Assembly: GCF_023238205.1 (NCBI RefSeq)
Contig: NZ_CP096659.1
Location: 1,815,626 to 1,879,625, forward strand
Reading direction: 5' to 3'
From: Halorussus limi
Lineage (GTDB): Archaea; Halobacteriota; Halobacteria; Halobacteriales; Haladaptataceae
DNA: 64,000 nucleotides
Shown here: positions 57,210 through 60,342 of the stretch, in pieces
How positions within the stretch are numbered: position 1 is the stretch's first letter
Layout of the letters: each line of letters opens with the position of its first letter
Position numbers and translations under genes: made by a program
The notes under the pieces: model-generated
What the model saw: only the letters and a program-made list of their open reading frames with translations
Told to the model about the DNA's origin: nothing
Database searches by the model: none

Positions 57210-57272
57210 ATGAGCCAGCAATCAGCCGACGAGTTGGTCGTCTACTCCGATTACGTCTGCCCGTTCTGCTAC
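57210..57272 (+). pseudogene. DsbA/FrnE-like thiol oxidoreductase, 5' fragment
   Basis: ATG at 57210 with the promoter CTTTTGA at 57181-57187, 27 nt upstream. The fragment encodes MSQQSADELVVYSDYVCPFC and Tyr, that is the first strand and the CPFC active site of a DsbA/FrnE-type oxidoreductase. The coding sequence is then interrupted by the insertion, which adds eight foreign codons and a TAG (57297-57299). The active-site half would thus be made only as a 29-residue peptide. Confidence 0.9.
57266..57272 (+). repeat. 7-bp target-site duplication, left copy
   Basis: CTGCTAC, directly repeated at 59763-59769 immediately beyond the other end of the insertion. The bases outside differ on both sides, so the repeat is exactly 7 bp. 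Confidence 0.88.
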
Positions 57273-57291
57273 GGAAGTAGGAATCTTCTAG
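57273..57291 (+). repeat. Left terminal inverted repeat of the insertion
   Basis: GGAAGTAGGAATCTTCTAG. It matches the reverse complement of the right end at 18 of 19 positions; the first 13 are identical and the single mismatch is position 14. Confidence 0.9.
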
Positions 57292-57341
57292 AAGAGTAGC
57301 TCCCCTTGCTTGGCAGCGAAGTAGGGTCTCCCTTTGTTTAC

Positions 57342-57372
57342 CAGTAGTTGGTAGCACGGTTTCTTTATTCAG
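57342..57372 (+). repeat. Internal 31-bp inverted repeat, left copy
   Basis: Starts CAGTAGTTGGTA and ends TTTCTTTATTCAG. The reverse complement occurs at 58088-58118 with two mismatches. The pair brackets the first DUF7344 gene of the insertion, with the CAGTAG ends pointing outwards. No convincing target duplication is seen next to them. Confidence 0.8.
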
Positions 57373-57489
57373 AACCGTCTGTGTAATCGCCACGCGATTT
57401 AGAGCGTGGGTTGAGCGATATAAAGGGTGATGAACTCGCACGTATCCCCCACAATAGAGTTATCTGTTAGTCGCCTCCATCATCAATGT

Positions 57490-57540
57490 GAGGGAGTGAG
57501 ACCAGCCAGCAGTAATGACTGGTCTCGTTGGGACTCCCTC
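57490..57540. repeat. Long imperfect stem-loop inside the insertion
   Basis: GAGGGAGT-GAGACCAG (57490-57505) pairs with CTGGTCTC (57519-57526) and ACTCCCTC (57533-57540), leaving a 6-nt bulge on one side and a 13-nt loop. The 16 paired positions are all matched. The region 57300-57578 otherwise holds no gene I can support. Confidence 0.65.
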
Positions 57541-57578
57541 AACACTCCTGCATTGCCACGTCATTTCGTGAAGACGGG

Positions 57579-57941
57579 TTACTCGGTGAGCGTGACCAAG
57601 AGGTCGTCAACGAGTTCGCCGCCGCGATACCGAACGGTGCCGGTTCGTGCGTCAAAGTCGATGATACTCTCGTCTGCTAATCGCGGCAGTATCTTGTGGT
57701 GAAGGTCGACCAGTACGGAGTCACGGTCGCCAGCCTCGGGGTCGTGCGTGAGTACATTGTCGGCAATCTTATCGACCGAGAACACTGTTTCAGGTTCCGT
57801 GTGAAGCGTTTTGAGAACGTAGCGCCGCCGTTGATTCCTGAGTAGGTCGAACGCTTGATTCAACGTGGAGTCGTTCATCGTACCGAGGTTTGGCCCACCG
57901 TTCCATTCATACATCTCGGCGTCAGAATCAGTATTAGACAT
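57579..57941 (-). CDS. DUF7344-type winged-helix regulator (insertion cargo, inner)
   Basis: 120 residues. The family core is seen in LNQAFDLLRNQRRRYVLKTL, DKIADNVLTHDPEAGDRD, LVDLHHKILPRLADESIIDFDARTGTVRY. No membrane helices, unlike the chromosomal relative at 2506. It is probably a DNA-binding regulator of unknown target. A TATA-like TCTAAAG lies 27 nt upstream of the ATG at 57941. It is bracketed by the 31-bp internal inverted repeats. The codon use is less GC-rich than chromosomal neighbours, consistent with transfer. Confidence 0.8.
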   Translation of the reverse strand: MSNTDSDAEMYEWNGGPNLGTMNDSTLNQAFDLLRNQRRRYVLKTLHTEPETVFSVDKIADNVLTHDPEAGDRDSVLVDLHHKILPRLADESIIDFDARTGTVRYRGGELVDDLLVTLTE

Positions 57942-58087
57942 ACTCTACACTTGGCTCTTTAGATAGAAATAGTCACAAGGTTTTCACTCTTCTTTCCTTT
58001 TTGATTAAGTGGGTGAACCAACACCGTTGACCGGCCAATACACACCACCAATTGAGCGGAACCGGCAAGCCAGTTACGGACTATCTA

Positions 58088-58118
58088 CTGAATAAAGAAA
58101 CCGTATTACCAACTACTG
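58088..58118 (-). repeat. Internal 31-bp inverted repeat, right copy
   Basis: Reverse complement of the copy at 57342-57372 with two mismatches. It begins immediately after the stop codon (58119-58121) of the second DUF7344 gene, as expected if the inner module had inserted right there. Confidence 0.8.
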
Positions 58119-58508
58119 TTATGGGTAGTTATCGATAGTCGCCGCGATGTCGAGGGCGTCATCAAGGAGGTCCGGTGCATAGGTACAACAGACGGTCTCA
58201 CTTCGTCGGTCATAGTCAATGAGGCCGTAGTCATCGAGTTTCGGGAGATGAATCTGGACGAGGGTTGTCTTGACCTGTTTAATGGCCTCCGGCGTCATCT
58301 CGTTTCGTGGGATGTCCTGCTCGAACACGGTGAGGTGACTGGCGAGGTCATCGATAGAGGCCTGTTCGTGGTCACGTAAATAGTAGAGGACGCACCGCCG
58401 TCGTTGGTGGGCAAGCGCTCCAAAGATTCGAGTCGGGAGCGATGTGCCACCGTCGCTGACGACCGGGGTTTCTTGTTGTCTCCCTTGGTTGAACTCATCG
58501 TCAGACAT
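58119..58508 (-). CDS. DUF7344-type winged-helix regulator (insertion cargo, outer)
   Basis: 129 residues. Core: LPTRIFGALAHQRRRCVLYY, SIDDLASHLTVFEQDIP, TTLVQIHLPKLDDYGLIDYDRRSETV. It is related to the inner regulator and to the chromosomal one at 2506 but is clearly distinct. Soluble, with one internal CC pair (VCCTYAP). A CATTTTAGG box lies about 30 nt before the ATG at 58508. The gene ends exactly where the inner inverted repeat starts. Its target is unknown. Confidence 0.82.
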   Translation of the reverse strand: MSDDEFNQGRQQETPVVSDGGTSLPTRIFGALAHQRRRCVLYYLRDHEQASIDDLASHLTVFEQDIPRNEMTPEAIKQVKTTLVQIHLPKLDDYGLIDYDRRSETVCCTYAPDLLDDALDIAATIDNYP

Positions 58509-58702
58509 CCTTCTAGGAAGTTAGAGGACTATGACCTAAAATGTGTGGGGTGGTGCCATACCTCACTTTTAATGCTGGCTACAACACGGGCGGTCGTAGC
58601 CGCAATCCGAAACTCATACCACGAACTTCTCATCGGAACTCCGGTCATGTCTCAGTACCCTGAGTGAACGGAAGGGAAGCCTCGACAGGAACCCACCTTG
58701 TC

Positions 58703-59159
58703 TAGACGGTTGGTTGTAAGCGACTGACGATTCATGTGACGAACGGTTCCGTTCGAAAGATCGACGGAACTGGCCGTCTAGTGGCAGACATCATTGCGAG
58801 CGTTGCCGCCGAGGAGCGGCGTCAGCTTATTCGTCGGACAGAATCGGGACAGAGACGCGCCCGAGAAGAAGGGAAGTGGCTGGGGCAGGTCCCGATAGGA
58901 TTCGTTCGGACTCTGGGTATCTGAAGCCGAATCTAACCCCGAACTACGATAATGGAGAGACCGGGTTTTTCGACGTGGTAGATGCATTAGAGCGTGTTGA
59001 AGCTGGGGAGTCGTACAACAAGACGGCCTCAACCCCACCAACATTACCCGGCAGACGCTTGCGAAAATCTATCAAGACGACAATCGGCGGGAATGGTACA
59101 TTGAGGGTAAGACAGAGGACGAACGTGTGCAGGACGCTCTAATGGACGTGGAAGCCTAA
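58703..59159 (+). pseudogene. Serine recombinase (resolvase) remnant with two frameshifts
   Basis: Three overlapping reading frames join into a recombinase-like C-terminal part: LVADIIASVAAEERRQLIRR and TESGQRRAREEGKWLG (helix E and the DNA-binding start), then GYLKPNLTPNYDNGETGF after a shift near 58907, then LNPTNITRQTLAKIYQDD after a shift near 59022, ending at TAA. The N-terminal catalytic domain with the active-site serine is missing; a stop codon occurs at the 5' limit. It must be inactive. It may be a relic of how the element was built or of its former resolution system. Confidence 0.75.
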
Positions 59160-59302
59160 ATACGAACAGATTGCAACAAGATTGAAACATTGCCTCAGAC
59201 GGCTCTGTTGAAACCTTCCGCTACTGAGAGTGAGTAGGTGATGAGCAATTCAGAGCGTGAATTGACCGATAGACCGATTTCCGTTGCGCTGATAATGCGG
59301 GT

Positions 59303-59626
59303 ATGGTTGAGAGGCAACTCGTATTCACCTTCCTACAGTTAGTGGCGCTCTCGCTTCCTGCATTCGCCATTCTCCTGCAGATAATGGTCGAATCCGAGAT
59401 GCCGTATACGTACTGGGCAGTACCGATAACGACCGCCGGGATGGGACTGTTTCTCATTGGCGGTGCTATCGTTGTCGTAGAACTCATGTTTGCCACCGCA
59501 ACGACTACCGCGACGGTGGCATTGGGGTTCGCCCTCCTTGGGATATTCAGTATGCTCATCGGAGTCAGTCTTATCGGTTTGCAAACGGGAGCGGAACAAC
59601 GCCGTCTTCGAGACAGTGGGGACTGA
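59303..59626 (+). CDS. Small four-helix membrane protein (insertion cargo)
   Basis: 107 residues. Hydrophobic helices: FLQLVALSLPAFAILLQIMV, YWAVPITTAGMGLFLIGGAI, VVVELMFATATTTATVALG and FALLGIFSMLIGVSLIGLQT, ending GAEQRRLRDSGD. No family recognised. Codon use is less GC-biased than the chromosome. It could be a partner of the adjacent regulators, since DUF7344 genes often lie near small membrane protein genes; that is inference. Confidence 0.7.
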   Translation: MVERQLVFTFLQLVALSLPAFAILLQIMVESEMPYTYWAVPITTAGMGLFLIGGAIVVVELMFATATTTATVALGFALLGIFSMLIGVSLIGLQTGAEQRRLRDSGD

Positions 59627-59743
59627 CCGGAGGGGTTCACTGAATAGTACGCACCACACATTGATGATTTCAGTTACTATCAAGTCCAGAAAGTTTCAAA
59701 AGGGCCGTAATCACATTCCCGGGCTTCCACTAGTCCTGACGTA

Positions 59744-59762
59744 CTAGAGGATTCCTACTTCC
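59744..59762 (-). repeat. Right terminal inverted repeat of the insertion
   Basis: CTAGAGGATTCCTACTTCC. Its reverse complement matches the left end at 18 of 19 positions, the outer 13 bp being identical. Confidence 0.9.
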
Positions 59763-59769
59763 CTGCTAC
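59763..59769 (+). repeat. 7-bp target-site duplication, right copy
   Basis: CTGCTAC, identical to 57266-57272. It is in frame with the following DsbA codons (TGC TAC CTC GGG). Confidence 0.88.
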
Positions 59770-60342
59770 CTCGGGAAGGCCGCGATGGAAGAGTACATCG
59801 AACAGAACGACGACGCTCCGGCGGTAGAGTGGCGATTCTACGACCTCCGGGGGTACAAGCGCGCGCCCGACGGGAGCATCAACCACGACGTCGACGACGG
59901 CAAGGACGACGACTACTTCGCGCAGGTCCGGGAGAACGTCGAGCGCCTGAAAGACCGGTACGACGTGGAGATGGACCTCGACTTCTCGAAGGACGTGGAC
60001 TCGTGGAACGCCCAGCAGGCCGCGCTCTACGTCCGACAGACCGAGGGCGAGGAGACCTTCCTGACGTTCCACGAGGCGGTCTTCGAGGCGCTCTGGCAGG
60101 ACGGTCGGGACATCGGCGACCCGGAGGTGCTGGCCGAAATCGCCGAGGACGTGGGTCTCGCCGGGGGCGAAATTCGGGACGCGACAGAGGACGAGACGCT
60201 CGAAGCCGAACTCCGCGAGCGGTTCAAACAGGCCCAGCAGGCCGGCGTGTCGGGCATCCCGACCTTCGTCTACGAGGGCCACGCCGCCAGAGGCGCGATT
60301 CCGCCCGAACAGTTCGAGCGACTGGTCAAAGGCGGAGCGTAG
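59763..60342 (+). pseudogene. DsbA/FrnE-like thiol oxidoreductase, 3' fragment
   Basis: Continues the protein from Leu-Gly-Lys-Ala-Ala-MEEYIEQNDD to the end. It holds the helical insertion (DYFAQVRENVERLKDRYDVE, FLTFHEAVFEALWQDGRDIG) and the cis-proline strand SGIPTFVYEG, then the last helix PPEQFERLVKGGA. With the 5' part it would make a 211-residue FrnE-type enzyme. An internal ATG at 59785 could give a 185-residue product, but without the CPFC site it would lack redox activity. There is no promoter-like box at the usual distance. Confidence 0.9.

Follow-up and report, generated by a model that had tools for sequence, protein, structure and literature searches.

The window, by which we mean the whole 64-kb stretch of DNA analysed here, contains at 57273-59762 an insertion of 2,490 bp, the outer element, within a gene encoding a DsbA/FrnE-like protein (thiol-oxidoreductase). 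The ends of the insertion, GGAAGTAGGAATC[T/C]TCTAG at 57273-57291 and 59744-59762, form a 19-bp terminal inverted repeat (TIR) with one mismatch, of which the outermost 13 bp are perfect, and the 7-bp target duplication CTGCTAC is perfect on both sides. In silico excision of 57273-59762 yielded a 211-codon frame that contains a CPFCYLG motif and belongs to the DsbA family according to Pfam, and the same gene is uninterrupted in most Halorussus congeners. At the empty site of genome G097, the two BLAST halves of the interrupted gene overlap by exactly 7 bp, which corresponds to the duplication. The perfect 13-bp repeats, the duplication, the intact gene on removal and the existence of empty sites, all of which the original prediction had claimed or asked to be searched for, were thus confirmed. 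Within the window, the outer element is the sole perfect 13-bp inverted pair (at most 6 kb apart) with a perfect 7-bp duplication, and of the 12-bp inverted repeats, which form 394 pairs there, none has a duplication of as little as 5 bp immediately outside the 12-mers. The flanks of the target are roughly symmetrical (CCCG..CGGG). Since the 3' part of the interrupted gene is still fully open, the outer insertion appears to be recent. Just inward of the outer left end, the sequence CGAAGTAGGGTCTCCC at 57318-57333 resembles the terminal repeat, and it is possibly a second binding site of the enzyme that moved the outer element.

From left to right, the insertion consists of the outer left end, a nested cassette, the second of two DUF7344 genes, a serine-recombinase relic, a solo IS-like end, a membrane-protein unit and the outer right end (Table 1). 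Analysis of open reading frames and Pfam searches detected no intact transposase or integrase within 57273-59762, in line with the claimed absence of a transposase, and the predicted contents (two DUF7344 proteins, a 107-aa membrane protein and the recombinase relic) were all found. The DUF7344 proteins are probably DNA-binding regulators, judging from a weak winged-helix similarity; we found no paper on DUF7344 in the open-licence literature. The recombinase relic (PF00239, E = 7e-6), which is devoid of the catalytic N-terminal part, is probably provirus-derived debris. The solo end GGCTCTGTTGAAACC resembles the ends GGCTCTGTTGAAATCC of an IS from 'halophilic archaeon LT46' (L372) that has an 8-bp duplication. 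A cassette end of the L type, described below, lies just upstream of the membrane-protein unit in H. aquaticus (G177) and in G137, and because of this adjacency in two congeners the unit is probably a decayed cassette. Searches of plasmid records matched only parts of the outer element, and those of phage records gave no match.

Table 1. Features of the insertion and of related transposons (positions refer to the window unless a locus is named)
Feature	Position	Strand	Basis or remark
DsbA/FrnE-like gene, 5' part including left target copy	57210..57272	+	frame MSQQ...CPFCYLGK... on joining to 59770-60342
Left target duplication CTGCTAC	57266..57272	.	perfect 7 bp
Outer left TIR GGAAGTAGGAATCTTCTAG	57273..57291	+	inverted-repeat comparison
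Inner left flank TTAC	57338..57341	.	duplication imperfect
Inner left 31-bp TIR CAGTAGTTGGTAGCACGGTTTCTTTATTCAG; conserved L-end continues to 57413	57342..57372	+	nhmmer L-end model, 68 bits (not independent, model built with this copy included)
DUF7344 protein 1, 120 aa, passenger of inner cassette	57579..57941	-	PF24035, 58 bits; E = 1e-15
Inner right TIR; conserved R-end continues to 58045	58088..58118	-	nhmmer R-end model, 65 bits (not independent, model built with this copy included)
Inner right flank TTAT	58119..58122	.	one mismatch to TTAC, flank comparison
DUF7344 protein 2, 129 aa, outside inner cassette, stop codon abuts cassette end	58119..58508	-	PF24035, 81 bits; E = 9e-23
Serine-recombinase relic, residues 102-248 of 249-aa homolog, three frames	58724..59153	+	tblastn with L101 homolog; DNA 78% identical
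Solo IS-like end GGCTCTGTTGAAACC	59201..59215	+	by eye; compare IS ends of LT46
Membrane-protein unit (ORF 59303-59626, 107 aa)	59246..59664	+	83-96% identical unit in four congeners
Outer right end, LT46-like	59676..59762	-	84% identical over outer 45 bp, weaker to about 85 bp
Outer right TIR	59744..59762	-	inverted-repeat comparison
Right target duplication CTGCTAC	59763..59769	.	perfect 7 bp
DsbA/FrnE-like gene, 3' part, frame still open	59770..60342	+	PF01323, E = 1e-24 for 59785-60342
L184 transposon	L184:1503-8130		duplication imperfect
L185 transposon	L185:1533-7873		duplication ATAA
L365 transposon	L365:4461-10929		duplication TTAC
L368 element, 3.8 kb, Cas-like genes	L368:8768-12529		clean TTAA duplication

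The nested cassette (57342-58118, 777 bp) has its own 31-bp inverted repeats and carries one of the two DUF7344 genes. It had been overlooked in the original prediction, which treated 57273-59762 as one element; the insertion as such is real. The flanks of the cassette differ at one position, and could be either two half-copies or a mutated duplication. Two further cassettes of the same family are present in this genome, one of about 1.5 kb with DUF7344 and DUF7343 genes (L103, from G000:C1:2990512) and one with a membrane protein (L145, near G000:C5:78.4 kb). Across the order, the 31-bp inner end, allowing up to three mismatches, turned up in 121 of 394 genomes, spread over 41 of the 95 genera, and a reversed control pattern was found in none of the 394 genomes. 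Among 34 non-redundant end pairs we kept 26 with no more than four mismatches per end, chosen blind to duplications. A perfect 4-bp NTAN duplication flanks 20 of these 26 pairs and four more differ by one base, while a control with the flanks shifted 4 bp outward gave no match in any of the 26. The cassettes are 0.3-1.8 kb long and contain one or two passenger genes and no transposase. The passengers differ from copy to copy and include DUF7344 and DUF7343 regulators, MazE-PIN toxin-antitoxin pairs, an FkbM methyltransferase, a sensor domain, a response regulator, a motility-related protein of the HVO_2248 type, lipoprotein-like proteins and small membrane proteins. An element that spreads regulators, as originally proposed, is therefore not what was found: the layer that spreads is the nested cassette, for which DUF7344 is one kind of passenger among many. 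We found no paper on such cassettes in haloarchaea in the open-licence literature. At one locus (L186, G181:C1:2166500-2186000) there are several near-identical short copies, apparently non-coding, with the variant end CAGTTGTTGGTAATACGATTTCTTTATTCAG, which are MITE-like members of the family.

The inner repeats could conceivably be conserved regulatory sites flanking regulator genes rather than the ends of an element, and they do flank DUF7344 genes in two copies of this genome. However, the genes between the repeats are unrelated from one copy to the next, and the exact 4-bp duplications just outside 20 of the 26 non-redundant pairs contradict this explanation, which we consider hardly credible.

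Inner-type ends also bound elements of 6.3-6.6 kb that encode a divergent DDE transposase of 610-618 aa, and the ISH3 family provides by far the best family model for the transposases of L184 and L185, with NCBIfam scores of 119 and 131 bits against a cut-off of 225; because the scores fall below this cut-off, we call the transposase ISH3-like and not ISH3. ISH3 elements are archaeal, have ends that begin with CRGT, generate duplications of 4-5 bp, encode a Y-(2)-R-(3)-E-(3)-R motif and are 1225-1500 bp long (PMC2266710). The family described here has the end consensus CAGT and the 4-bp NTAN duplication, and the motif occurs as YRRRWGIETGFR in the L184 and L185 transposases. A transposase of this kind is WP_225336365.1 of Halomicrobium urmianum. 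Its members differ from ISH3 in size, both as autonomous elements and as cassettes, in the length of the transposase and in the presence of Cas5/Cas7-like and other genes: the large transposons also hold Cas7/Csm3-like and Cmr3/Cas5-like genes, and L184 carries the C-terminal half of a TnpB-related protein. No transposase was detected in the L368 element, which has inner-type ends. Two loci on a plasmid of Halorussus caseinilyticus (L204 and L205, G114:C4) derive by internal deletion from the Cas-like half of the transposon and have kept the same end. The nearest ISH3-like transposases in the present genome share no more than about 30% identity with the presumed mover. Across the family, IS-type ends and duplications enclose passengers without a transposase, the duplication of the window copy being imperfect, and cognate elements that have inner-type ends and bear a transposase (L185, L365 and L184) occur in other genera. 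On these sequence features we file the inner element as a putative mobile insertion cassette (MIC) of an ISH3-related family, and the ISH3-like transposase probably moves the cassettes in trans.

The outer ends behave differently from a spreading family. The genome contains 51 matches to the outer end with up to two mismatches, and no pair with duplications was seen among the loci examined; elsewhere in the 394 genomes, matches lie mostly inside long reading frames. Exact degenerate outer ends were not found elsewhere in haloarchaea in a search of 84,980 genomes. What stands of the predicted element class is thus a clean, recent, transposase-free insertion of cargo, and the multiple copies looked for reduced to one other, at the same site. 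The outer right junction is present in exactly two of the 394 genomes, this one and that of LT46 (G182), where the insertion point in the orthologous dsbA-like gene matches to the nucleotide and the orientation agrees. Given this coincidence of position and orientation in the sole other copy, the outer element appears to recognise the dsbA site specifically. The similarity of the two right ends (Table 1) gives way to unrelated sequence further inward. LT46 has lost the 5' part of the gene as well as the outer left end, which was not found within 11 kb. A second dsbA-like copy of LT46 (L097:11689-12330) is intact, and its synonymous changes cluster on the target codons (GTT TGT CCC TTT TGT TAT), unlike in the other homologs seen; it is possibly a refractory site, an idea that is post hoc and of modest statistics.

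A single old insertion, inherited by this species and LT46 and precisely lost from the other lineages, would account for the identical insertion point and orientation and for the similar right ends. In the MutS tree, however, the neighbours of this genome are G066, G097 and G125 (100/99) and that of LT46 is G114 (97/97), and the site is empty in all four, so that several precise losses would be needed. The remnant of the LT46 gene is closest to G131 and its sister G114 (87 and 86%, respectively), and the gene of this genome is among those least like it (77%). The open 3' part of the gene here and the unrelated interiors also speak against inheritance, which we therefore regard as unlikely. Given the groupings in the MutS tree and the identities of the flanks, two independent, site-specific insertions at the dsbA site are the likelier course. 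This reading is based on two copies, of which that in LT46 has lost its left side, and on the tree of a single gene, which is weak evidence for species relations; exact losses, or local exchange among species, could give the same picture. Another possibility, rather doubtful and yet somewhat better than inheritance, is that the outer element derives, in the manner of a MITE, from an unsampled DDE-type IS that duplicates 7 bp and is not very selective about its target, and for which the site shared with LT46 would be a hotspot. A duplication around inverted ends is the usual mark of DDE transposition, no mover is encoded inside, and the near-symmetry of the target flanks also fits. Against it, no other pair of the outer ends was found in this genome or, except for the LT46 copy, in the 394 genomes of the order, and none of the DDE_Tnp_1 genes of this genome and of LT46 has ends similar to the outer ends.

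A serine recombinase might instead have integrated the element in the manner of SCC or XisF, with CTGCTAC as the core, the TIRs as att arms and the relic as the remains of its own integrase. The relic does lie inside, the insertion is at a conserved gene site in a fixed orientation, and the XisF and CcrB models match the homolog of the relic with scores under their cut-offs. The evidence on the other side makes this quite improbable: no intact integrase is present in the outer element, the homolog that is intact in this genome belongs to a 23.3-kb element located in a tRNA-Val gene with 24-bp repeats, inverted repeats with duplications were not seen around the 16 other loci of recombinase homologs, and a close homolog of the recombinase is missing from LT46. 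A search of viral contigs for the recombinase gave no match. The 23.3-kb block with the intact recombinase (G000:C1:110835-134144) is 99.93% identical to G177:C1:646644-669953, at the same tRNA-Val locus and with the 24-bp repeats; it is a recently shared integrated element of two Halorussus species. As regards the mover of the outer element, inverted ends, a short duplication and empty sites are all observed, and no cognate transposase with the same ends was found inside or among the DDE_Tnp_1 genes of the two host genomes; because of the inverted ends and the short duplication, our best guess is a DDE-type enzyme that was supplied in trans or lost.

We propose, with a probability of about 0.7, that 57273-59762 is a mosaic of two mobile layers, an outer dsbA-site element and a nested ISH3-like cassette moved in trans. 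The outer element with its 19-bp ends would have inserted into the active-site codons (CPFCYLG) of the dsbA/frnE-like gene, duplicating 7 bp and, as part of this explanation, disabling the gene. Its enzyme would have acted from elsewhere or since disappeared, and the LT46 copy at the same base would represent an independent event. The 777-bp inner cassette was most likely mobilised by the divergent ISH3-like DDE transposase of its larger relatives, and the outer element seems also to have gathered a probable second, decayed cassette, the solo IS end and the recombinase debris. A broader scheme, to which we give slightly less than even odds, is a gene-cassette economy of haloarchaea, in which the ISH3-like transposase accompanied by Cas5/Cas7-like genes spreads single-gene cassettes with regulators, toxin-antitoxin pairs, lipoproteins or sensors through many genera and the outer element, a separate one, serves as a dsbA-site-specific landing pad for them. 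If so, short cassettes that lack a transposase and escape annotation may carry many of the small hypothetical and regulator genes of haloarchaea, one transposase family could be tested as their common mover, and the cassette ends offer a ready search handle. As inner-type ends also bound the Cas5/Cas7-like transposons, the spread of such CRISPR derivatives becomes testable, and the outer element points to a highly conserved active-site motif as a possible target of site-specific insertion.

Several known systems resemble parts of this arrangement. SCC-type cassettes use serine recombinases for site-specific insertion in a conserved gene and have inverted ends and short direct repeats. The outer element differs from them in having no intact recombinase, and the loci of the recombinase homologs are without such ends. 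HRAMP comprises haloarchaeal Cas5/Cas7-like genes without a CRISPR array (PMC8730458); in our case the Cas-like genes, which may be likened to HRAMP, sit within ISH3-like transposon ends. The MITEs of Haloquadratum are transposase-free, have inverted ends and need a transposase in trans (PMC3119063). Haloarchaeal MITEs and SMRs share with the inner cassettes the lack of a transposase and the inverted ends, but the Haloquadratum MITEs are mostly shorter than 500 bp and non-coding, except for the ISH2-type with an ORF (PMC3119063). The closest likeness is to MICs, in which IS-like ends enclose a passenger that replaces the transposase and which are activated in trans (PMC3129680); the inner cassettes are like them in the IS-like ends, the target duplication and the passenger in place of a transposase. 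Compared with MIC231 of Bacillus cereus, the example of a MIC cited in PMC2266710, the inner cassettes are archaeal, have ISH3-like and not IS231 ends, carry diverse passengers in many genera and have 31-bp ends which, in part of the family, continue inward into conserved L and R sequences.
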